In this document: positions 746 to 29,174 of the stretch, piece after piece
Numbering within the stretch: the first letter of the stretch is position 1
Layout: every line of letters starts with the position of its first letter
Program-made: the position numbers and the translations under genes
Notes under the pieces: model-generated
Seen by the model: only the letters and a program-made list of their open reading frames with translations
Told to the model about the DNA's origin: nothing
Databases searched by the model: none
IMG/VR virus record: IMGVR_UViG_3300023170_000124
Coordinates: 1 to 29,352 of that record
Reading direction: 5' to 3' (one strand)
Source of the DNA: a virus
DNA length: 29,352 bases

Positions 746-782
746 GTTCTTTTCTTTTTCTTTATGGAAAATAGAAAAGAAC
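746..782 (+). promoter_or_regulatory. bulged hairpin with UUUAU loop (copy I)
   Basis: Bases 746-755 pair perfectly with 773-782 (10 bp). A 2-nt bulge (A771, U772) follows on the 3' side, then 756-760 pairs with 766-770 (5 bp, one U-G), closing a UUUAU pentaloop (761-765) with C-G. The same architecture recurs at 2337-2377 and 6686-6722 with different stem sequences. No U-tract follows, so it is not an intrinsic terminator. It lies 28 nt before the ATG of the gene at 811, ahead of the AGAAAGGGA ribosome binding site. RNase processing site, mRNA-stabilising cap or protein-binding operator are all possible. Confidence 0.72.
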
Positions 783-810
783 TTATTATTAATTATAAGA
801 AAGGGAATAT

Positions 811-1014
811 ATGGATATTGATGACAAGCTAGATAATCTAACTAATACACAGTTACGTACTGTTATTAAGTGGACACTAGCAGATACACATAATGCAGCT
901 AAAAATTACTCAGGACTTGATGAGAGAGTCAAGGGTTGGTGTGCAATGCTTAATGAAGCTATTGAATATCAAATTGATAAAGCTGTTAATAAAAATAATA
1001 GAGAGGAAGAATAA
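811..1014 (+). CDS. hypothetical protein (67 aa)
   Basis: This is a 67-residue, mostly helical, hydrophilic protein with no recognised domain. The start at 811 is supported by AAGAAAGGG at 798-806. It is the first gene after the UUUAU hairpin at 746-782 and heads a tight four-gene run to 2084. Its stop overlaps the next ATG by one base (AATAATG), with GAGAGGAAG as the next gene's SD. The C-terminus (NREEE) is nearly the same as that of the next gene, because the SD sequence is embedded in the last codons of each. Function unknown. Confidence 0.75.
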   Translation: MDIDDKLDNLTNTQLRTVIKWTLADTHNAAKNYSGLDERVKGWCAMLNEAIEYQIDKAVNKNNREEE

Positions 1015-1280
1015 TGAGTACTAAAGAAATATTAGAACACGTTAAACAATTATCTATGCGTATAAATGTGTTAGCTGATATGCAGATGTTAGTTATGGAA
1101 GAATTGGGTGATAAAAATCCAAGGTTTCAAACAAAAGCTATAGCAAAAATATTATCGCACGATGAACTTAGAGAAGACTTTACTGAGTTTGTACAAACTG
1201 AAAAAGGTATGTCAGATAATGTAAAACTATTTATGCAAGATATAAATGAGATGATTAAAGATATAAGAGAGGAAGAATAA
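1014..1280 (+). CDS. hypothetical helical protein (88 aa)
   Basis: This 88-residue protein is rich in Lys, Glu, Leu and Met. The heptad-like spacing of hydrophobics in residues 8-30 suggests an N-terminal helix pair or short coiled coil. No membrane segment or metal site is visible. It starts one base inside the previous stop and ends 'DIREEE', again carrying the GAGAGGAAG SD for the following gene. It probably belongs to a co-translated accessory cassette with its neighbours. No family recognised. Confidence 0.73.
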   Translation: MSTKEILEHVKQLSMRINVLADMQMLVMEELGDKNPRFQTKAIAKILSHDELREDFTEFVQTEKGMSDNVKLFMQDINEMIKDIREEE

Positions 1281-1864
1281 TGCCTAACATATGTAGAAAT
1301 AGCGTTGAAATTACAGGTGATACAAAAGATATTACTAAATTTTTAAATACTATTACAAAGAAAGATGATAATGGTGAGTACTATTACAGCTTCACAGAGG
1401 CTAGTCCTATGCCAAAAGAATTACAAAACTTACACCAAGGTTTAAGAACTATTGATGGTGTTAGATGTAACGTATGGTATGAAGATGATGATGGTGCTAG
1501 GCCAATGCTTGATATAACTAAAGATGAATTGATAGATAAGTATGGTACATATGAACCAATTAGTTGGCAGTATGACTACTGGGGTACTAAATGGGGTGAT
1601 ATGTCAACACAATTAGTATCAGATACAACAATTGATGGTAAAAGAACTGTGCAATTTTGGTTTGAATCTGCATGGGGACAACCATTTATATTATTACATG
1701 ACATATGTACTAAGTTTAGTTTAACTATGAAAAATACATATGACATTGAGTTTGAAGAAGAACTTAAAACAGATACGTATCCTATAGAAAACGCAGAAGA
1801 AATGTTTAATGAATACAGAAATAGTATGCGTGATATGAGAAGTAGCGTACGTGATGTTGTATAA
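1280..1864 (+). CDS. Api92/YubB-like ferredoxin-fold protein (DUF1281-type)
   Basis: The 194-residue product has the signature layout of the Api92/YubB family (ferredoxin-like alpha/beta fold, DUF1281-type). It opens with MPNICRNSVEITGDTKDI, continues with a 'PMPKEL' segment near residue 45, then 'YWGTKWGD' near 99-106 and 'FWFESAWGQPF' near 126-136. These W-G-T-K-W and aromatic-SAW-P patterns are what I recognise from phage and plasmid members. The biochemical role of the family is not known to me; plasmid members sit in early-transferred accessory regions. Length fits a full-length member. The gene overlaps the next by up to 14 bases. Confidence 0.72.
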   Translation: MPNICRNSVEITGDTKDITKFLNTITKKDDNGEYYYSFTEASPMPKELQNLHQGLRTIDGVRCNVWYEDDDGARPMLDITKDELIDKYGTYEPISWQYDYWGTKWGDMSTQLVSDTTIDGKRTVQFWFESAWGQPFILLHDICTKFSLTMKNTYDIEFEEELKTDTYPIENAEEMFNEYRNSMRDMRSSVRDVV

Positions 1865-2084
1865 AGAAAACTTAATAGTACAATATGCACACTGCGGTGA
1901 ATGTTTACAATCTAAACCACCACATTATTCGCCAATGGAATGGCAAGATATATCAGTAGGTTTAGTTGAAGATATGCAACACTTACAAATATGGTGTAAT
2001 AGACATGATGCTGAAGTTGCTTTGTTAGCTTTAGCAAGCAAAGTTACACCAGATATGCAGTGTGATTGTAGTGAACATGATTAA
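1854..2084 (+). CDS. Cys/His-rich hypothetical protein (76 aa)
   Basis: This small protein contains CGEC near residue 15, CNRH near 49 and CDCSEH at the C-terminus. Together these could hold one or two zinc ions. ATG 1854 is chosen; GTG 1851, directly in front and in frame, is an alternative. The ribosome binding site is weak (GAGAAG) and lies inside the upstream gene, so coupling to the 1280 gene, whose stop is at 1862-1864, is likely. It ends this module and is followed by a 315-nt stretch without genes. Function unknown. Confidence 0.65.
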   Translation: MLYKENLIVQYAHCGECLQSKPPHYSPMEWQDISVGLVEDMQHLQIWCNRHDAEVALLALASKVTPDMQCDCSEHD

Positions 2085-2399
2085 AGTCAATGCAGCAATA
2101 CTGTAATTGAAACGCAGAGCTATTTACATTGTTGACTTCCCCTTTGTCAACCGATAGACCATAATGTAGATAGCTTGTAGCACATAGGTAGTAACTCAAT
2201 TTCCAACTTCTACTTGTGTGTTACAAGCTATCTATGAATGTTTTAGAAACGATGTAATATCTACAACTACAATTCATAGATGCAAAGCTAGTTATGTGTA
2301 TTCATGCCCAGTCTAAACAACATAATTAGCGTCTATGTATGTAAGCCTTTCTCTTTATGAGCCAAAGGCTTACATACTATAAAAAAAGAAAGGAGATAT
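2085..2399 (+). ncRNA. structured leader with long hairpin and alternative pairings
   Basis: This 315-nt gap has no credible gene but is dense in complementary segments. Hairpin A: 2131-2136 with 2146-2151, competing with 2085-2090:2132-2137. Hairpin B: 2165-2191 with 2210-2236, 27 consecutive pairs including six G-U. Hairpin C: 2275-2283 with 2329-2337 and 2289-2296 with 2321-2328, with a 5-nt bulge. Hairpin D: 2337-2350 with 2364-2377, the UUUAU element. An alternative helix 2229-2239:2272-2282 would break the bases of both B and C. The G-U pairs would be C-A mismatches on the other strand, so the structure belongs to plus-strand RNA, the sense of the downstream MoxR/VWA module. Whether it is a cis-acting leader or a released small RNA cannot be told. 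Confidence 0.65.
2337..2377 (+). promoter_or_regulatory. bulged hairpin with UUUAU loop (copy II)
   Basis: Bases 2337-2350 pair perfectly with 2364-2377 (14 bp). A 2-nt bulge (C2362, C2363) follows on the 3' side, then 2351-2353 pairs with 2359-2361 (CUC/GAG), closing a UUUAU loop at 2354-2358. Geometry matches the hairpins at 746 and 6686 although the lower stem sequence is unrelated. It ends 22 nt before the start at 2400, just ahead of the strong GAAAGGAGATAT ribosome binding region. The tract after it is A-rich rather than U-rich, which argues against a terminator. Confidence 0.78.
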
Positions 2400-2870
2400 A
2401 TGCCATCAGGTGATTACTTAGAAGTACACGAACAAGATGACATTGAGTTCATGGTTACTCTTACATATTTAGATATGCCAGGAGCACCAAAAGAACATAA
2501 TGCTAGAACTGTACGTGTGTTGTTAAAAGCCAAAGATATAATTCAAGCTGTAACTATGGCTACAACAATTGACATGGTAAACAAAGCAGAAATGATGACC
2601 GATTTTATCGGTTCACATCCATCGCTAATAAATAAACAAGTATTTACTAGAGATGAGATAAATAATCTAAGGCAGCAAGCTATAGATAATGGTGTATTTG
2701 CTAGCTGGCTAATGCATCCAGCATCTGCAATACAAGTTGTTCAATATGATAAGAGTCAAGAAATGAATGATATCGTATTGAATGACGTAATGGAACATGC
2801 TTCTCACTTGGGTGACCAAGCTGAGGAGTTCTTAAAAGATATAGACGAAGGAAAGGAAGGTACAAAATGA
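2400..2870 (+). CDS. hypothetical protein upstream of MoxR/VWA pair (156 aa)
   Basis: This 156-residue acidic protein has no recognised domain. An N-terminal strand-rich part (residues 10-45, 'IEFMVTLTYLDMPG') is followed by helices and a charged Glu/Lys-rich tail. The start at 2400 is well supported by AAAGGAG at 2388-2394. Its stop forms ATGA with the ATPase start at 2867. The overlap and the shared leader suggest it is made together with the AAA+ ATPase and VWA protein. It could be an adaptor or substrate-specificity factor of that pair, which is inference from position only. Confidence 0.75.
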   Translation: MPSGDYLEVHEQDDIEFMVTLTYLDMPGAPKEHNARTVRVLLKAKDIIQAVTMATTIDMVNKAEMMTDFIGSHPSLINKQVFTRDEINNLRQQAIDNGVFASWLMHPASAIQVVQYDKSQEMNDIVLNDVMEHASHLGDQAEEFLKDIDEGKEGTK

Positions 2871-3577
2871 ATTGTTGGGAATTACTTGACAATGTAATAA
2901 GTGTATCAAATAGAATATTACTATATGGGCCACCAGGTACTGGTAAAACATATAGTGCTGTAAAGCAAAATCAACCTATAAATGCGTTTGGCGAACCAAA
3001 TGTGTTTCAAATTACAATGACAGAAGATACTGCTTCTGCTAATTTAGAAGGCTTTTATAAACCAAGTAAAGATGGTGGCTTTCAATGGCATGACGGTATC
3101 GCTATACAGGCATGGCGACATGGTGGTAGATTGGTAATCAATGAGATTGACCACGCATCACCAGACGCTATGACTTTTCTGCATGCAATTTTAGATGACC
3201 CAGAGATAGCAGGTATCACTCTTAACAATGATAAGAGAGAAACTGTTAGACCAGCAGATGGTTTCCAGGTTATCGCAACAACTAATAGTCCACCTGAGAG
3301 TTTACCTTTGGCACTCAAAGATAGATTCCCAGTTAAAATTAATATGGATACAATACATCCAAAAGCTTTGGCTGTATTTCCTACTGAGTGGCATAAAGTT
3401 ATTAATGAAACTACATTAGTTGATGACCCAGAACAACGTGTATCTATACGTGCATGGAAAGAGTTCTTTATGCTTAAAGACCAAGACTTCAGTCAAGAAG
3501 TTGCAGCTAAACTTATATTTGCTGATAAATCAGAAGAAATTATCGATGCAATACTACTAGCTAAAGCTAATGACTAA
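2867..3577 (+). CDS. MoxR-type AAA+ ATPase (CobS-like)
   Basis: This is a 236-residue single-domain AAA+ ATPase of the AAA_5/MoxR type. Walker A GPPGTGKT is at residues 21-28, Walker B RLVINEID at 88-95, sensor-1 Asn140 lies in ATTNSPP, and an arginine-finger-like Arg153 sits in LKDRF. All key residues are present, so it should hydrolyse ATP, probably as a hexameric ring. The family includes CobS, the magnesium-chelatase BchI subunit and MoxR, which remodel partner proteins with a VWA subunit. It is coupled to the preceding gene (ATGA) and overlaps the VWA gene by 8 bases, the classical two-component arrangement. In marine phages such genes are often labelled cobS, but no other cobalamin genes are here, so a chaperone-like role is more likely. 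Confidence 0.92.
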   Translation: MNCWELLDNVISVSNRILLYGPPGTGKTYSAVKQNQPINAFGEPNVFQITMTEDTASANLEGFYKPSKDGGFQWHDGIAIQAWRHGGRLVINEIDHASPDAMTFLHAILDDPEIAGITLNNDKRETVRPADGFQVIATTNSPPESLPLALKDRFPVKINMDTIHPKALAVFPTEWHKVINETTLVDDPEQRVSIRAWKEFFMLKDQDFSQEVAAKLIFADKSEEIIDAILLAKAND

Positions 3578-5006
3578 AGCATATCCATATCCAGAGATTG
3601 TAACTGGAGAAGACTGGACTGTTTATGGTACTAGCGAATTTAATTCAACACCACGTACTGACAATGTCAATAACAAGATGGTTGTACCACTTGATAGAGA
3701 ATGTGAGGCATGTGGTGTTAATCATAGTCGTATGGTACGTAGACATCAGTTAGGTCGTGCTAAATGGTCACCTAAAACATTAGGTAAGTTTGGTCCAGAT
3801 GTAAGACAAGAAGCTGTAGAAATACTAGAACGTATGCGTATTGATTGGCTACTTGGTTATGCAGGTAGAGGTATAACAGACCCTTATGTATGCCAAGAGT
3901 TTACAGATATGCAAGTACTTAAAGTAATCTATGAAGGTTCTATTGCAGAACTAATTACTTGTTTTCTTAATTTAGTTACATGGATTGATTCAAAACATCC
4001 ACGTGCATATTATTCTACTAGTGCTAACTTAACTGGTAGAGCACAATGGTACTTAAGTGTACTAAGTAATTGTGCAGATGATATGCGTTTTACTGAGGCA
4101 AGACGTATGGAATATCTATTTGTTTATCATCAAGTATATAAGTTTATGAGAAAGCTTATAGACGATAGACGAGCTGATTTACCTACGTTTGCTGCTGTAA
4201 AAAGACAAGCAAAACTTTTGTCAATACTATTAGAAATGGATGAACGTCCAGATAAACAATATGTATTTAAACCTATGCCTAAGAAAGGTGAAGGTAGTGG
4301 CGAAAGTTCTGATGAATCTGAACAACAACAATCAGGTGGTTATGGTAATGGTTCTGCTAAAGACTTAGAAAAACGTATGAAACGTAAACTTATGGAAGAC
4401 ATGTCATACTATACAAGTTCTAGTATGGGTCAATGGGGTGAAATGAGAATACATGAACCACCATTGTCAGTTAATCTACAAGCTAGATTAAAGAATGGCA
4501 GAGATTATAGACCACAAGATTATGGTTACAATCCTAAATACATTAATAGATATTGTATTGACAAGAAGATATTCAAACAAAGACAACGTGTCAAAGGTGG
4601 CACAATATTGATTGACGCTTCTGGTTCAATGCGATTTGATGGTAAAGATATCTTAGATATTATGATGATATTACCTGCAGTTAACATTGCTATGTACAAT
4701 GGTAGTGGTAACTGGGGTGACTTACGTATCATTGCTAAGAATGGACTACGTGTTAATGATGATTATTTAAACATACACTCTGGCAGAGGTAATGTTATAG
4801 ATGGTCCAGCATTACGCTGGCTAGCTGAACAACCAGCAAGACGTATATGGGTTAGTGATATGAAAGTGTTTGGTAGAAACGATAGCAGTGTTGGTTACAA
4901 TTTACTTAGAGATTGTATAGACACATGTACTAAAGCACAGATAATTAACTTAAAAAACGTAGAGGAAGTAAAAGAACACGCATTAAAACTAAGCGTGCTA
5001 AACTAA
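3570..5006 (+). CDS. VWA-domain protein, partner of MoxR ATPase (CobT-like)
   Basis: The 478-residue protein ends in a von Willebrand factor A domain with a MIDAS metal motif DASGS at residues 349-353. Before it comes a low-complexity hydrophilic linker (around 235-265, Gly/Ser/Glu/Gln-rich) as in CobT. The N-terminal half contains CEACGVNH near residue 46 and a Trp/Arg-rich helical region of unknown role. MIDAS VWA subunits bind a protein or metal substrate and present it to the MoxR ATPase encoded just upstream with an 8-base overlap. The stop codon at 5004-5006 coincides with the first bases of the structured RNA at 5005-5161. Cobaltochelatase activity is unlikely without the large subunit. 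Confidence 0.88.
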   Translation: MTKAYPYPEIVTGEDWTVYGTSEFNSTPRTDNVNNKMVVPLDRECEACGVNHSRMVRRHQLGRAKWSPKTLGKFGPDVRQEAVEILERMRIDWLLGYAGRGITDPYVCQEFTDMQVLKVIYEGSIAELITCFLNLVTWIDSKHPRAYYSTSANLTGRAQWYLSVLSNCADDMRFTEARRMEYLFVYHQVYKFMRKLIDDRRADLPTFAAVKRQAKLLSILLEMDERPDKQYVFKPMPKKGEGSGESSDESEQQQSGGYGNGSAKDLEKRMKRKLMEDMSYYTSSSMGQWGEMRIHEPPLSVNLQARLKNGRDYRPQDYGYNPKYINRYCIDKKIFKQRQRVKGGTILIDASGSMRFDGKDILDIMMILPAVNIAMYNGSGNWGDLRIIAKNGLRVNDDYLNIHSGRGNVIDGPALRWLAEQPARRIWVSDMKVFGRNDSSVGYNLLRDCIDTCTKAQIINLKNVEEVKEHALKLSVLN

Positions 5007-5161
5007 ATAGCAGGTAAGGTACTAGCAATAGTGACGTGTTCCTTTCCACGTAACCCTTACTAAGTAATGGAATAGAGTCGGAGGAGAACTCCGGACGAGG
5101 TTTTTCGCACATCTTGTGCAAGTCAATCCCTATAGTGAACACCATTACGCTATTTTTTTTT
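5005..5161 (+). ncRNA. compact multi-branched structured RNA with terminal U-tract
   Basis: No gene fits between the VWA stop and the next start, but hand pairing gives a closed fold. P1 5005-5011:5149-5155 encloses everything. P2 5013-5019:5055-5061 holds a hairpin with a GCAA tetraloop (5020-5024:5029-5033) and P3 5034-5038:5047-5051. P4 5064-5070:5142-5148 abuts P1 directly, allowing stacking. It encloses P5 5072-5075:5130-5133, P6 5079-5083:5089-5093 and P7 5107-5111:5115-5119. A run of eight U (5153-5160) follows. G-U pairs (5013:5061, 5020:5033) support the plus strand. It does not match tRNA, tmRNA, RNase P or hammerhead cores that I know. Function unknown. Confidence 0.7.
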
Positions 5162-5170
5162 ATATAAAGT

Positions 5171-5197
5171 TTGACTAAATATCAATGAAAGTATAAT
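5171..5197 (+). promoter_or_regulatory. sigma70-like promoter, probably leaderless
   Basis: TTGACT (5171-5176) and TATAAT (5192-5197) are separated by 15 bases, slightly short. The -10 box is followed by exactly seven bases and then ATG 5205. No Shine-Dalgarno is visible, so transcription would begin at or next to the start codon. The same TATAAT-N7-ATG layout occurs at 6500-6515 and, on the minus strand, at 14880-14865. The site lies right after the U-tract of the structured RNA, so one unit ends and another begins here. Confidence 0.55.
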
Positions 5198-5204
5198 GAA
5201 TAGT

Positions 5205-5447
5205 ATGAATATAGATGATATGCTTTACGAAGCAGAAAATGGTAAAAGAAGTCCGATACTTGACAGGATAACTGAAGAAGCTGAACCTTTTTGGCATGGC
5301 TGCGAAGAACGTGTTAAGTCAGGACGCAACATAAAACCATATGTTGTTTCAAGATTATTGAAAGAACAATATGGTATCAAAATAAGTGAGAGTGCAGTGC
5401 GTAATCACTTTGAAAACTTGGCGAATCTAGGTTCACAATATGAGTGA
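5205..5447 (+). CDS. small HTH-like DNA-binding protein (80 aa)
   Basis: The protein is small and helical. Residues about 40-70 (YVVSRLLKEQYGIKISESAV) look like a helix-turn-helix with a following RNHFENL recognition-type helix; the assignment is by pattern only. ATG 5205 is preferred because TATAAT ends seven bases before it; the in-frame ATG at 5196 lies inside the -10 box and would add three residues. The stop overlaps the phosphoesterase start by 8 bases. The pairing suggests a DNA-recognition subunit or N-terminal module for that nuclease-like enzyme; a small-terminase-like role is another possibility. Confidence 0.68.
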   Translation: MNIDDMLYEAENGKRSPILDRITEEAEPFWHGCEERVKSGRNIKPYVVSRLLKEQYGIKISESAVRNHFENLANLGSQYE

Positions 5448-6498
5448 TAAAGATATTGATAAGCTATTTATAGAAGCTGAATCTAAATTAGTTCAAGAAC
5501 TCAAAGCTGATAACCTTAAACTACTTAAGTCATTAGAAAAAGCTAAAAATAAAAAAGCTGATATGATTGAAGCAGTTTATGAAGCTGTATCTACTAACCT
5601 TCGTACATGGGACAAACCAAATATCCCTAAACCTAAATTACATAAACGTAATAAGAACGAAGAAGTAGCTGTAGCTGTACTCTCAGATGTACAATTGGCG
5701 AAGGTAACGCCAGATTATAACACACAAGTAGCAGAAGAACGTGTAATTGAATATGCAAATAAGATAGTTGAATTGACAAATGTTCAACGTTCTGCACATC
5801 CAGTTAATAAATGCGTAGTCCTAGCTGCTGGTGATATCGTAGAAGGTGAGCTTATATTCCCAGGTCAAACACATTTGATTGATGCAAGTTTGTACAATCA
5901 AGTAACAATAGATGGCCCAAGAATACTTACCAAATTCTTTGATACATTATTGGCGAACTTCCAAGAAGTAGAAGTACATTGGGTAATAGGTAATCATGGT
6001 TCATTAGGTGGACGTGCAAGAAAAGATTATCACCCAGACTCTAACGCTGATAGAATGCTAGGCAAAATAATGGATATGGTATATGAAAAAGATAAACGAA
6101 TATCATTTGTTATTCCTGATAGTGAAGGCGATAATCATTGGTTTGATATTGCTGATTTGGGTAAGGGATGTAAATTCTTTGTATGGCATGGCGATAATGT
6201 AAGAGGACACAGCGGTTTTCCATGGTATGGCTTTGGTAAAAAGTTATTAGGATGGAAAGCACTAGCGTCTAGAGGTTTAATGCCTGACTTTGATTATGCT
6301 ATTGCTGGACACTGGCATACACCTACAACTATGTATGTTAATGACATAAGATTGTGGGTAAATGGTAGTACTGAAAGTTACAATACATATGCATTAGAAC
6401 AATTAGCGAGCATGGGAAGACCATGTCAATGGTTATTGTTTGCTAAACCTAATCATGGAGTAACTGCAGAATACCTTGTAAAATTGTCACATAAGTGA
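5440..6498 (+). CDS. calcineurin-like metallophosphoesterase
   Basis: A 352-residue protein with a Lys/Glu-rich helical N-terminus (1-70) and then a full calcineurin-like phosphoesterase core: SDVQ (Asp83, Gln85), GDIVEGE (Asp132), GNHG (Asn185, His186), WHGD (His250) and GHWH (His291, His293). Gln replaces the usual His in the first D-x-H motif, a substitution I associate with phage members. The family comprises two-metal phosphodiesterases such as SbcD/Mre11 nucleases and nucleotide hydrolases. Here a DNA end-processing or nucleotide-cleaving role is plausible given the nearby Rad52-like annealing protein. No SbcC-like partner is in the window. It is coupled to the HTH-like gene by an 8-base overlap. 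Confidence 0.87.
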   Translation: MSDKDIDKLFIEAESKLVQELKADNLKLLKSLEKAKNKKADMIEAVYEAVSTNLRTWDKPNIPKPKLHKRNKNEEVAVAVLSDVQLAKVTPDYNTQVAEERVIEYANKIVELTNVQRSAHPVNKCVVLAAGDIVEGELIFPGQTHLIDASLYNQVTIDGPRILTKFFDTLLANFQEVEVHWVIGNHGSLGGRARKDYHPDSNADRMLGKIMDMVYEKDKRISFVIPDSEGDNHWFDIADLGKGCKFFVWHGDNVRGHSGFPWYGFGKKLLGWKALASRGLMPDFDYAIAGHWHTPTTMYVNDIRLWVNGSTESYNTYALEQLASMGRPCQWLLFAKPNHGVTAEYLVKLSHK

Positions 6499-6505
6499 CT
6501 ATAAT
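6476..6505 (+). promoter_or_regulatory. sigma70-like promoter, probably leaderless
   Basis: TATAAT at 6500-6505 is followed by seven bases (GAATACT) and ATG 6513. The downstream string is nearly the same as at 5192-5207 (GAATAGT, then ATG). A -35-like TTGTAA lies at 6476-6481 with an 18-base spacer, inside the end of the phosphoesterase gene. No Shine-Dalgarno precedes ATG 6513. The close match to the 5192 site and the identical spacing are the main support; the -35 is weak. Confidence 0.5.
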
Positions 6506-6512
6506 GAATACT

Positions 6513-6683
6513 ATGACAAACATAGACACTAAGTCTAGTTGGGAGTTAACAGGCATAGAGTACAGTGGTTTAGGTGATAAGCCATACTTTATTCTGACCA
6601 ACATAAATGGCGAGTGCAAGCTTGTACCCATAGAAAAAGGGGTACATAACTTGCGAAGTTTATTAGACTTAGATAAAGAATAG
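6513..6683 (+). CDS. small hypothetical protein (56 aa)
   Basis: A 56-residue protein with alternating strand-like segments (SWELTGIEYSGLGDKPYFIL) and one Cys; no family recognised. The frame can start at GTG 6495, ATG 6504 or ATG 6513. The last is chosen because it lies seven bases after a TATAAT box and no site offers an SD. It is the only gene between the phosphoesterase and the third UUUAU hairpin, which begins three bases after its stop. Function unknown; an early host-takeover peptide would fit the position but is only a guess. Confidence 0.65.
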   Translation: MTNIDTKSSWELTGIEYSGLGDKPYFILTNINGECKLVPIEKGVHNLRSLLDLDKE

Positions 6684-6685
6684 AA

Positions 6686-6722
6686 GTATTTGTTTTTCTC
6701 TTTATGAGAAAAAAACAAATAC
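6686..6722 (+). promoter_or_regulatory. bulged hairpin with UUUAU loop (copy III)
   Basis: Bases 6686-6697 pair with 6711-6722 (12 bp). A 2-nt bulge (A6709, A6710) follows on the 3' side, then 6698-6700 pairs with 6706-6708 (CUC/GAG) around a UUUAU loop (6701-6705). Because of the A-run the bulge could slide, but its size is fixed. It ends 13 nt before the Rad52-like start at 6736, ahead of the AGAAGGGA ribosome binding site. This copy and copy II share the CUC-UUUAU-GAG cap exactly, while their lower stems are unrelated. Confidence 0.75.
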
Positions 6723-6735
6723 AGAAGGGAATGTT

Positions 6736-7302
6736 ATGACTAATAACGTTGACTTACTATCCCCATTTCCACAGGAGATAGTTAGGAAAGCACCAGCTGG
6801 TAAGTTTGGTGATTATGTTCCACACGCACACTACGTTGAGCGTTTAAGGGACAGTGGAGTTAAATACACATGGCAATGCGAACCTGTATATGGTACATAC
6901 AATGGTGAAAAACGTATTGTCGGTGCTAAAGGTACTATAACAATTGATGGCATGGGTAGCTATGATGGCTTCGGTGACGTTGATACATTTAAGCTAGGTA
7001 ATGCTAAGTTTAATGATGGTACTAATCTTAAAGATGCAGAGTCTGATGCATTTAAACGTGCATGTATGAGATTTGGTCTAGGCGTAGAGCTATGGTCAGG
7101 TTCAGTACAATCAGAAGAAGAAGCTACATCTTATGGAACTGATGGTTACACTCAAGAAATGGCTGACAAAGATGCCAAGGTTGAAGTAACTAAAGTAGAT
7201 ATGCGTAAAAAAGAGAACAAACCTACTAAGGAAGATGTTCAACGCATGAATGACATTATGGATAGTATCTTAGATACTGAAAATAATGAAGCACCATTCT
7301 AA
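6736..7302 (+). CDS. Rad52/Erf-like single-strand annealing protein
   Basis: The 188-residue protein shows the phage Rad52/22 (single-strand annealing) pattern. A 'FGDYVPHAHYVERLRDSG' helix lies near residues 24-41, followed by a beta sheet (YTWQCEPVYG, GAKGTITIDG), then 'KDAESDAFKRACMRFGLGVELW' split over residues 103-124, the most conserved family signature. The C-terminal 60 residues are polar and end in NEAPF, a short acidic-hydrophobic tail as often seen in proteins that contact SSB. It would anneal complementary ssDNA during phage replication or repair. It leads the 6736-9256 module, directly behind the third UUUAU hairpin. Confidence 0.85.
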   Translation: MTNNVDLLSPFPQEIVRKAPAGKFGDYVPHAHYVERLRDSGVKYTWQCEPVYGTYNGEKRIVGAKGTITIDGMGSYDGFGDVDTFKLGNAKFNDGTNLKDAESDAFKRACMRFGLGVELWSGSVQSEEEATSYGTDGYTQEMADKDAKVEVTKVDMRKKENKPTKEDVQRMNDIMDSILDTENNEAPF

Positions 7303-26032: not shown

Positions 26033-27384
26033 TATCTAATCCTTTGTGTTGACGGTTCTAAGAAATTTTGACTTCGTATAATGTTTCCACCAAAAGAAGA
26101 TATCATATCTCTTGCAAAATCATTAACTACACTACCTATATTATTTGCTAAACCTTCTTGTACTAAATATTTATTAGCTTCATTAACATCATTTAATGTA
26201 GCTACTTTGTTATAAACATATCCATACTTACCATCTGGGTCTATTTCCATATCCCATTTGTTTTTAATAGTATTTTTTGTAATTCTATCTATAACACTCC
26301 ATTTAGTTTCTTTATCGTATTGTGGATATAAAGCATATCTTGCATCTTTTAATTCATTTTCTAAAGTTTCTAAATATGAAGCATCTTGTCTATATTCACC
26401 AGCATGTTTTCCAATTTCATCTATGTAATCTTTTTTTGCAGAAGGAGGTAACCAGTCATCTATAACAGTCATAACTTCTTTTTCACCAACTGTAGTTTGT
26501 TCAATAGTAGAATTTGTTATAAACGATTCTAAATCTTTATCTAACGGTGTATCTCTATATTTATCTACTAATCTAAATAATTGACTTCTAGCTTTATTAT
26601 TATCCCATGAACCCATAACAACTTTATTTGCTATCCATTCCATAGTTTTATCATCAACACTTGCACCACTAGGTAATAAATCATATAAATATCCTTTTTG
26701 TGCTGATAAATCTAAAGCATATTGTGCTTCATTAACATTGTAAAAATCTAAAGCAGTAATTTCAGGTTCTGTCAAATTAAGTTCTTTTAATACTTGACTC
26801 ATAACTCCTGCAGTATTTACATAATCATTAGCTGAAGCTATATCTTGAAATAATAAATATCCTTCTTGCCATTTTCTTCTATAAGTTGGAGATTTAAATT
26901 TAGTAGTTCCTTCATTTAATTTATTAAAACTATTCATTGCTATATCTATTTGGTCTGAAATAGTAAAATCAGTAGTAGACATTACTACAGCTTCTTCAGG
27001 TGTTAATGTTCCAATTTGTGTTTGAAAGAAATTTTCTGGTACTTCTATCCAGTTTTCTGTTTGAACATACATACTATCGTATTCAGTTGGAGTAACGTAA
27101 TGAGCTGTTTCATCTTTTACCATATCTTTAATGTATTCAAATGGATTTCCACCTTTATAATCAATAACATCTGTATAATCTTCTGCTGGATTAAATGCTA
27201 AATATTCTCCAGTTTCTGTGGGAACTATTATTTTATAAGTTAAACTTGATAAAAAAGCTTTGTTTAATTCAAATTTACTTGTACCTCCAGCTTGATATAA
27301 TTCTTTTTCTATTTCTTCTAATGATTTAGGACCAACAATAATTATTACTGCTCCAGGAGGTAATTTAGTTTTATCTAAAGCCAT
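26032..27384 (-). CDS. probable virion protein (450 aa)
   Basis: A 450-residue, acidic, helix-rich protein with many aromatic residues. The N-terminal segment (PPGAVIIIVGPKSLEEIEKE) contains a short hydrophobic strand, not a P-loop, as the Gly-Lys-Ser/Thr is absent. Internal repeats were not seen. It lies two bases downstream of the 595-residue gene and overlaps the 332-residue gene by one base. Context suggests a structural or ejection protein; no family recognised. Confidence 0.72.
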   Translation of the reverse strand: MALDKTKLPPGAVIIIVGPKSLEEIEKELYQAGGTSKFELNKAFLSSLTYKIIVPTETGEYLAFNPAEDYTDVIDYKGGNPFEYIKDMVKDETAHYVTPTEYDSMYVQTENWIEVPENFFQTQIGTLTPEEAVVMSTTDFTISDQIDIAMNSFNKLNEGTTKFKSPTYRRKWQEGYLLFQDIASANDYVNTAGVMSQVLKELNLTEPEITALDFYNVNEAQYALDLSAQKGYLYDLLPSGASVDDKTMEWIANKVVMGSWDNNKARSQLFRLVDKYRDTPLDKDLESFITNSTIEQTTVGEKEVMTVIDDWLPPSAKKDYIDEIGKHAGEYRQDASYLETLENELKDARYALYPQYDKETKWSVIDRITKNTIKNKWDMEIDPDGKYGYVYNKVATLNDVNEANKYLVQEGLANNIGSVVNDFARDMISSFGGNIIRSQNFLEPSTQRIR

Positions 27385-27386
27385 TA

Positions 27387-29174
27387 TTAAGACCCACTTT
27401 CTGCATTATTGTACATTTGTATATCATACCCTGCCATTTCCATTATACCAGGTCCAAACCTATCTTTAATTTTTTGTAGCTTTTTCCAAGTGTCTACATG
27501 ATGATTTGCATTACCAGGAACTAAATCTGGATTATTAACTTGTGCAAAATAACTAGGATTTACTCCAAATTGTCCTGTTTGTTCAATTTCATTTTTCCAC
27601 CAACCAAAAAAACCATCTTGATTTCTTATTTTAAATTCTCTTTGCCCACTAATAATATCCCAATAATCTTGTTCATCAGCATCTAATTCAAATCTTTGAG
27701 GAAACTGGGACATAACCATTTTATTTATACCCCAGTTATGTGGAGTATTACCTGTTATTTTTGCAGGTAACATAGTATCTAAGATATACCATAAAGATGT
27801 AAGTTTTGAACCTTGCCAACCAGCACTTTGCCAATATCTACTTTGATGTGCTAAATGTTTATTTAAATCTTCATAGGGTATTACATCAATATTTTCTTTT
27901 ACAAATTTTGGTAACAAACCATATTTATCTAATACACTATTTAAAGCATCTGAAGCATTAAGTGTTGTAGCAACTATAGCAGCAGTTCCTTGCCATGCTA
28001 ATTGATTATATAATTCATACCAAAGATTACTAGCTATTCCTCCTAGTCTACCAGTAAGTGCACCTGTTGCTTTAGCTCCTTTAGCAGCTTTTCTACCTTG
28101 ATTAGCAGCTTTTAAAAGGCTATCACCCATTGCATGTCTTCCTTTAATAGCATCTTTAATTATACCTGTTTTAACACCTATTCTTACAGCTGTTTCTATA
28201 CCTTCTCCTATTGGGTCTAATATAGATATAATTCCTCTATACAATACTTTGCTTAATTTACCACTTATTTTTACAGGATTAAATTTACTTAAAGAATTGT
28301 ATTTATCAAAAACATCTGCACCAAATGTTTTAACTAATCCTAGTAATAAACTTTCGCCATTTAATTTTGCATTTTGCATAGTAGGATGATTGTTAATATA
28401 ATCTAAAGCTCTACGTTCAGAATCAGTCATTTTATCTAATATTGATTCTTTAAAACTTTTATGTATATCAGGGTCATATTCTTCTATTTTTTCTGGAAAT
28501 ATATTAGGGTCATTTAATTTAGCTGCACCAAGAGAACCACCAAAACCTTGATTATTAAGTATATTAGTTAATGCTTCTGCTTGATTAACTGTTTTATTAG
28601 GGTCACCTGCAAAACTATCTACTAAATTGTAACCTTCATCTACTTTAGCTTTTAATTGATTTATTAATTTAGGATTTTCATCTGCCCACATTTGCCAAAG
28701 TTTTTGATATTCATCTTTACTTACTTGGTAATCTTTACCAAATAAAATACTATTTTGTGCAGGAGGTTTACCTTTACCAGATTTTTTAATTTCATTTTGC
28801 CATACATCTTCTATAGTTCTACCTTTGTATGGTCCTTCTTTAAACGTAGCATTTAATGCAGAAAATTGTTTACCTAAGTCATCACCTTTAGTAGATACTT
28901 CAAATGTTTTATTAGCTGTTTCTTGTTTTGCAATATCTTCTACAATTAATTCATCAGGTATAGTGTCAGGTATTCCTATATTTGCACGATACTTTACACT
29001 ATCAATTAAATCATCTGCTAACTGTTGTAATAAATCATTTTTGTCTTCTAACAATGGAATTAAATCTTCAAACTGTAATACAGCTCTATCTATTTCTATT
29101 TGAGGTATATTAAATTCTTTTTGTAAAGCATTAAGTTCGTCTAAAACTTTTTGTCTAATTTCATCTTTGTCCAT
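27387..29174 (-). CDS. probable virion/ejection protein (595 aa)
   Basis: A 595-residue protein. The N-terminus is a long charged helix region (1-85), the middle contains a basic, Ala/Gly/Lys-rich stretch (AANQGRKAAKGAKATGALTG near 354-373) followed by amphipathic or weakly hydrophobic helices (LWYELYNQLAWQGTAAIVAT), and the end is aromatic-rich. Membrane-active amphipathic helices within a large late protein are typical of ejected internal virion proteins. It overlaps the upstream truncated gene by one base (TAATG). Assignment rests on composition and position. Confidence 0.72.
   Translation of the reverse strand: MDKDEIRQKVLDELNALQKEFNIPQIEIDRAVLQFEDLIPLLEDKNDLLQQLADDLIDSVKYRANIGIPDTIPDELIVEDIAKQETANKTFEVSTKGDDLGKQFSALNATFKEGPYKGRTIEDVWQNEIKKSGKGKPPAQNSILFGKDYQVSKDEYQKLWQMWADENPKLINQLKAKVDEGYNLVDSFAGDPNKTVNQAEALTNILNNQGFGGSLGAAKLNDPNIFPEKIEEYDPDIHKSFKESILDKMTDSERRALDYINNHPTMQNAKLNGESLLLGLVKTFGADVFDKYNSLSKFNPVKISGKLSKVLYRGIISILDPIGEGIETAVRIGVKTGIIKDAIKGRHAMGDSLLKAANQGRKAAKGAKATGALTGRLGGIASNLWYELYNQLAWQGTAAIVATTLNASDALNSVLDKYGLLPKFVKENIDVIPYEDLNKHLAHQSRYWQSAGWQGSKLTSLWYILDTMLPAKITGNTPHNWGINKMVMSQFPQRFELDADEQDYWDIISGQREFKIRNQDGFFGWWKNEIEQTGQFGVNPSYFAQVNNPDLVPGNANHHVDTWKKLQKIKDRFGPGIMEMAGYDIQMYNNAESGS

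Follow-up and report, generated by a model that had tools for sequence, protein, structure and literature searches.

The early mRNA of phage T7 carries RNase III sites at its operon junctions, and several other phage groups carry intergenic hairpins or inverted repeats, some of them poorly explained. In the cluster K mycobacteriophages, the extended start-associated sequences (ESAS/SAS) are inverted repeats near the starts of some non-structural genes, with a function that is unproven (PMC3203893, PMC12699233). In T4-like phages, the leader hairpin of gene 32 stabilises its mRNA; CUUCGG hairpins are frequent in phage intergenic regions, and a hairpin also precedes the sigma gene of phage 7-11 (PMC8948821). 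T4-type phages have PeSL (promoter early stem-loop) cassettes, mentioned in PMC4503421, which place stem-loops at the bounds of early modules. At the T4 gp43 operator a phage protein reads the loop bases of a hairpin upstream of the start codon, and among relatives the apex is kept and the length differs (PMC3014915). Here we describe a family of hairpins that shares features with each of these systems and that, as a family, fits none of them. We studied it in a viral sequence of 29,352 bases (IMG/VR virus record IMGVR_UViG_3300023170_000124; the window, below, means this whole stretch), in which three copies stand just ahead of the genes that open three early modules. Dozens of relatives keep the position and fold of the hairpin at these genes (named here by their start positions, 811, 2400 and 6736); what the family has in common is a long stem in a set position rather than the UUUAU loop of the window copies. 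We regard the hairpin as a candidate, and probably a real, control or cutting signal on the viral mRNA, as judged by sequence comparison.

Among described elements, ESAS comes closest in host group and in position. Like ESAS, the hairpins occur in what are likely actinobacteriophages, lie just upstream of start sites and are kept at orthologous genes, and the consensus of ESAS itself varies by subcluster. Unlike ESAS, in which the sequence of a 17-bp repeat is conserved and often adjoins a 13-bp SAS, the hairpin stems vary freely, and only the apex and the geometry recur within a phage. The 13-bp SAS (GGGATAGGAGCCC) had no match in the window with up to 3 mismatches, and no common arm sequence of the ESAS type was found: the arms differ between copies, and stem similarity within a genome is at chance level. 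The hairpins also resemble the CUUCGG and gene 32 leader hairpins in being stable intergenic leader structures with short conserved loops, but they combine a 3' bulge with a UUUAU or UUUAC loop instead of UUCG, and CTTCGG is absent from the three window hairpins. They recall the PeSL cassettes as stem-loops bounding early modules; a PeSL couples a promoter with a terminator-like stem-loop, whereas neither a promoter nor a U-tract is evident at the hairpins. The gp43 operator, likewise a hairpin upstream of a start codon, serves one autoregulated gene, while up to five copies precede different genes here. With the early RNase III sites of T7 they share an intercistronic place between early genes, but the stems are shorter and have a loop in common, and cleavage is putative. 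The best model for a loop that is read by a protein is the gp43 operator, and for a nuclease that selects its loop, yeast Rnt1p.

The three window copies, with the Shine-Dalgarno sequence that follows each, are as follows.

746-782, + strand: hairpin 1, lower stem 746-755/773-782, 10 bp, with a GU..AC base
Apex of hairpin 1, + strand: upper stem 756-760/766-770, loop UUUAU at 761-765, 3' bulge AU at 771-772
798-805, + strand: Shine-Dalgarno sequence of gene 811, AGAAAGGG, read from the sequence
2337-2377, + strand: hairpin 2, lower stem 2337-2350/2364-2377, 14 bp
Apex of hairpin 2, + strand: upper stem CUC/GAG at 2351-2353/2359-2361, loop UUUAU at 2354-2358, 3' bulge CC at 2362-2363
2388-2395, + strand: Shine-Dalgarno sequence of gene 2400, GAAAGGAG, read from the sequence
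6686-6722, + strand: hairpin 3, lower stem 6686-6697/6711-6722, 12 bp
Apex of hairpin 3, + strand: upper stem CUC/GAG at 6698-6700/6706-6708, loop UUUAU at 6701-6705, 3' bulge AA at 6709-6710
6723-6730, + strand: Shine-Dalgarno sequence of gene 6736, AGAAGGGA, read from the sequence

These folds and places, which a sequence-only reading of the window had proposed, agree with the letters and with RNAfold, which gives -14.4, -21.4 and -12.9 kcal/mol for hairpins 1, 2 and 3; each folds both alone and in its local context. Hairpin 1 has, in addition, an alternative minimum-energy register with a 1-nt bulge and a UUAU tetraloop closed by U-G, and the corresponding copy of a near relative (L006/L085) has UUUAC with GAAAAAU, by which the 5-nt loop and the 2-nt bulge are restored. 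The distances of 28, 22 and 13 nt from hairpin to start codon, each spacer containing a purine-rich Shine-Dalgarno sequence, are also as first described. Hairpin 3 begins 2 nt past the stop codon of a small ORF upstream. Sequestration of the Shine-Dalgarno sequence was considered as a general mechanism and ruled out, that sequence lying outside the stem in all three window copies; it falls inside the stem in a few relatives and in one copy, ahead of a Zn-finger gene, in a near-identical contig described below.

To ask how unusual such a structure is, we defined a class by a C-UUUAU-G loop, an upper stem of at least 3 bp, a 2-nt bulge on the 3' side and 8 bp or more in the lower stem. The window contains three members, all on the + strand and outside coding sequence, and none on the - strand, against a single member in 1500 dinucleotide shuffles searched on both strands. 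The loop motif alone is ordinary (YTCTTTATGRR with one mismatch occurs 6 times, with 6.7 expected), and the exceptional rarity comes from the long bulged stem. A covariance scan with Rfam 15, at E up to 1, reported nothing at the hairpins and a single sub-threshold match elsewhere.

Conservation was assessed in leaders of homologues collected by protein similarity alone, from which redundant leaders were removed; within the 75 nt ahead of each gene, the stem with the most pairs was recorded. A stem of at least 8 bp was present in 78%, 81% and 97% of the leaders of genes 811, 2400 and 6736 (7, 4 and 19% in shuffles). These three, the genes that the sequence-only reading had named, were the only ones with conserved stems. 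The remaining early genes, most of them near background, had such a stem in 0-33% of leaders, rarely reaching 9 bp; the highest were gene 1014 (25%) and gene 8116 (33%, none of its 12 leaders reaching 9 bp). Where numbers allowed, genes of the late strand were at background, the capsid gene having 0 of 10. Gene 6736 encodes a protein like the single-strand annealing proteins (SSAP), and in each of six alignable clusters of its leaders RNAalifold recovered the hairpin with compensated pairs; on the SSAP leaders of the whole family it returned no structure, because the stems are not alignable.

For a wider survey we took relatives at 146 loci, reached through two protein anchors, with 13 long contigs taken whole. 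The count of UUUAU and UUUAC hairpins given below covers about 2 Mb of related phage DNA. A first geometric scan of the 146 loci with fixed bulge classes placed just three UUUAU sequences in the 0x2 pentaloop class, since relatives carry other apices, and it was replaced by a search for the outer stem. One contig of 50.5 kb (G001) is nearly identical to the window and contains its region at an offset of +27,996. The idea of three copies, one per module, holds for the window; G001 has five, of which those at 26698-26734 and 27554-27590 lie outside the window and the other three are the window copies. Its five copies have distinct lower stems, a UUUAU or UUUAC loop with C-UUUAY-G closure and the 3' 2-nt bulge, on upper stems that vary (AAUUC/GAAUU, UUUUC/GAAAA, CUC/GAG). 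The lower stems had been said to share no sequence; the arms do differ, but all five copies have a 5'-GU...AC-3' base and pyrimidine-rich 5' arms. Total pairing is 15 bp in four of the five (10+5, 10+5, 10+5 and 12+3) and 14+3 in the fifth. Over the family, stem length and the split between upper and lower stem vary. At 26698-26734 of G001 (L150 6698-6734) the stem extends to 30 bp and swallows the Shine-Dalgarno sequence of a small Zn-finger gene, unlike the window copies. Left-arm copies at L152-L178 (in G002, G006, G010, G011 and G012) show a second tier of AU-rich stem past a single mismatch, for instance ATATCA/TGATAT, for a total of 20-30 bp.

All 13 distinct UUUAU or UUUAC hairpins in the 2 Mb precede a Shine-Dalgarno sequence and a start codon, and none lies elsewhere. 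With the leaders found by protein homology, these are the further copies ahead of genes in related phages that the sequence-only reading had called for, and they support its general idea of a phage-specific cis element heading gene modules. The second outcome that it had set as a refutation, such hairpins being as frequent within genes or in shuffled sequence, did not occur: coding sequence and the other strand have none, and the shuffles gave the one member. The UUUAU loop it described belongs to the lineage of this phage; the wider family keeps the hairpin at the same genes with other apices. A scan of IMG/VR for CTCTTTATGAG followed by a Shine-Dalgarno sequence and ATG gave at least 123 matches. 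Among the matches listed, at least 12 had a 2-nt 3' excess together with 8 bp or more of lower stem, all from this phage group (one short contig being placed there by its Zn-finger gene only), and 3 further stems of at least 8 bp had another geometry, without the 2-nt 3' excess. In L272, TTGACATAGTCTCTTTATGAGACTATGTT occurs twice before genes; it is a promoter-like palindrome that shares an 11-mer by chance and falls outside the hairpin family.

In the surveyed genomes the hairpins are confined to the early strand. This restriction, the fixed orientation and the short, regular distance to the Shine-Dalgarno sequence all speak against an element acting as DNA, such as a cruciform, a protein operator or a recombination point for the exchange of modules. 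Palindromes pair as well in DNA, and the modules are mosaic, but the stems hold no common binding sequence beyond their GU/AC base, and we consider this explanation highly improbable.

Most copies in long contigs (28 of 42) begin 0-18 nt past the previous stop codon, and because of this closeness the hairpins look intercistronic. Such a place after a stop codon would suit a transcription terminator or attenuator that ends the upstream module, as in the T4-type PeSL cassettes. In G007 and G008, T7-8 tracts with TTGAC or TTGAT behind them do follow a few of the left-arm copies, and actinobacteria may terminate without strong U-tracts. At the three window copies, however, no U-tract follows on the + strand (the 3' flanks are TTATTATTAA, TATAAAAAAA and AGAAGGGAAT) and no + strand terminator was called, so that the terminator reading is rejected for them, as the sequence-only reading had also held. 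The downstream gene is moreover 13-28 nt away, which leaves no space for a new promoter, and sigma-70-like sites in the region are no commoner than in shuffles (40 against 45.2, with a consensus that may not be that of the host). We find termination quite improbable. Hexamers resembling a -10 element show a slight excess upstream of the copies (mean 4.43 against 4.04 matches, again with a consensus that may not be the host's). A promoter-like TTGTAA-18-TATAAT (10/12) is present at 6476-6505, just ahead of the small ORF at 6504; a transcript from it could be leaderless and would carry hairpin 3.

The same closeness to the stop codon bears on a passive role, in which the structure would protect a 5' end from decay or insulate the Shine-Dalgarno sequence from upstream structure or translational coupling. 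UUUAU is not an especially stable loop, and a passive leader would have no use for one apex repeated among the copies of a genome. The hairpins do mark junctions of non-overlapping genes, and the gene 32 leader and the CUUCGG hairpins (PMC8948821) offer precedents. Most copies follow the stop codon so closely that a promoter hardly fits in between, and the 5' stability cap proposed at first is weakened, because its promoter would need to be within the preceding gene. We judge a passive leader unlikely.

Intercistronic position and early-strand restriction are also what would be expected of processing sites, at which host RNase III would cut the stem, separate the modules and leave a structured 5' end. 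Asymmetric internal loops are common among the hairpins, total stem length is kept in G001 while the split between lower and upper stem varies, and no dedicated reader of the apex is required. Such a site would be expected to have near-continuous duplex of about 20 bp or more. The window copies have about 15-17 bp, a short duplex for a bacterial RNase III, and in relatives many of the left-arm copies have 20-30 bp, interrupted by a 1x1 mismatch. A generic enzyme would, besides, leave unexplained why unrelated stems of one genome share a loop, although RNase III enzymes can prefer particular loops, as does yeast Rnt1p (PMC4334505). Processing of this kind is possible if somewhat doubtful, and it comes a close second to the explanation we prefer, which turns on the apex.

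Apices differ by lineage: relatives have TTCYGACTTATGAAGTC (G010), a 13-nt CTGACTTAAAAGT type (G011), ATCCTTCGA (G006), TTTCG (G013) and TACCTTACGT (G009). Within a genome, apices are more similar to one another than between genomes, a difference reached by 2 of 2000 label permutations, while the lower stems have no such excess (363 and 1176 of 2000). A U-rich loop followed by G is enriched across lineages, TTNYG occurring in 42% of distinct apices (14% in shuffles) and TTATG in 20% (2%). Apices differ by lineage, and at orthologs their divergence is no slower than that of the stems; a loop signal common to all lineages is therefore absent on present sequences, and a reader, if any, would change between lineages.

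We favour, tentatively, a post-transcriptional signal at operon junctions whose apex would be read by a lineage-specific factor. On an early polycistronic transcript, the hairpin would fold between the upstream stop codon and the first Shine-Dalgarno sequence of the next module. The long lower stem, which would need pairing only, would display the apical part (here the 3' 2-nt bulge, the short upper stem and the C-UUUAU-G loop) to a trans-acting factor of the phage lineage, and binding or cutting 13-28 nt before the ATG might then set the translation of the module or the half-life of its mRNA, in either direction. In its favour count the near absence of the hairpin class from shuffles, the 13 hairpins that all head genes, the stems kept at just three early genes, the compensated pairs in the SSAP clusters, the greater likeness of apices within a genome, the one type of loop and bulge on five different stems of G001, and the closeness to stop codons. 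A more specific version, which we think rather unlikely, is a diverging RNA loop code. Each lineage would pair its own apex with a protein encoded by the phage, either an RNA-binding protein or a nuclease that reads the loop, and would in this way mark where early modules begin so that they are controlled together. The code would change quickly between lineages and would be to RNA what repressor/operator specificities are to the DNA of temperate phages.

Several results weigh against an apex reader. Family searches of the early proteins recognised no RNA-binding protein or domain and no nuclease as a reader. The within-genome apex effect is modest (0.47 against 0.42 between genomes), in part because the automatic list includes unrelated palindromes. 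Between orthologs, apices have a similarity of 0.56-0.61 and stems one of 0.62-0.68, so that the apex diverges no more slowly than the stem and the case for a reader depends on the comparison within genomes. The apical loop of several relatives is, moreover, large and unstructured. One result in favour of the element needs a caveat: in fixed-length extracts of the 13 UUUAY hairpins, 143 of 143 cells are paired and 35 double changes are seen against 11.1 +/- 2.4 in shuffles, but this covariation is partly built in because the selecting scan required pairing, and the protein-homology leader test and the SSAP clusters are less biased.

Whatever acts on it, the element has fixed coordinates and is backed by a strong comparative signal. 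A large family of uncultured marine phages, probably of actinobacterial hosts, keeps it at the first genes of the AAA-ATPase module and of the recombination (SSAP) module. Should there be a loop-specific reader, the two could form an orthogonal RNA-protein pair, and would show post-transcriptional coordination of early modules in phages with few recognisable regulators. To ESAS and the intergenic T4 hairpins the family adds comparative data by which reader, nuclease and passive cap can be separated testably.

The genes of the three modules that concern us here are the following.

811-1014, + strand: gene 811, opens module 1; 67 aa, without a family match
2400-2870, + strand: gene 2400, opens module 2; 156 aa, with no assigned function
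2867-3577, + strand: AAA ATPase gene, second gene of module 2
3570-5006, + strand: phrog_33218 homologue, after the AAA ATPase in module 2
6736-7302, + strand: gene 6736, opens module 3; SSAP-like, phrog_3290, E 2.6e-10

Genes 1014 and 1280 are chained to gene 811 through overlapping stop and start codons. Inside modules most genes overlap, and the hairpins stand at junctions of non-overlapping neighbours. The + strand genes extend to about 9.25 kb and include the AAA ATPase, a metallophosphoesterase/exonuclease (phrog_284) and the SSAP; structural genes are on the - strand of the window. The named homologues of the major capsid protein are mostly in phages of Mycobacterium, Propionibacterium and Bifidobacterium, and the best named match of the metallophosphoesterase is in Streptomyces phage Dagobah (43.8%), which makes actinobacteria the likely hosts. 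When GTDB genomes were searched for the host with the metallophosphoesterase, no relative of that protein came up, and no SSAP homologue was found among named phages. The phrog_33218 homologue had no Pfam match (that phrog has no assigned function); by eye, this large protein after the AAA ATPase resembles a VWA-domain partner, so that 2867-5006 would encode a MoxR/CobS-T-like pair. The modules are mosaic, one relative having an SSAP that is 97% identical over the part compared and an AAA protein only 78% identical.

Two noncoding stretches also look structured. Upstream of hairpin 2, 2085-2336 contains a long palindrome at 2167-2234 (TAGATAGCTTGTAGCACA...TGTGTTACAAGCTATCTA); similar gaps in most relatives hold palindromes too, whose sequences differ and which often come with repeats like AGCTTGTA, and the stretch is possibly a structured RNA or an origin-like region. 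In the other, 5007-5195, the structured part ends in a T-tract near 5153. Next comes TTGACT...TATAAT, which resembles a promoter and stands immediately ahead of a gene that may be leaderless and starts at 5196 or 5205.

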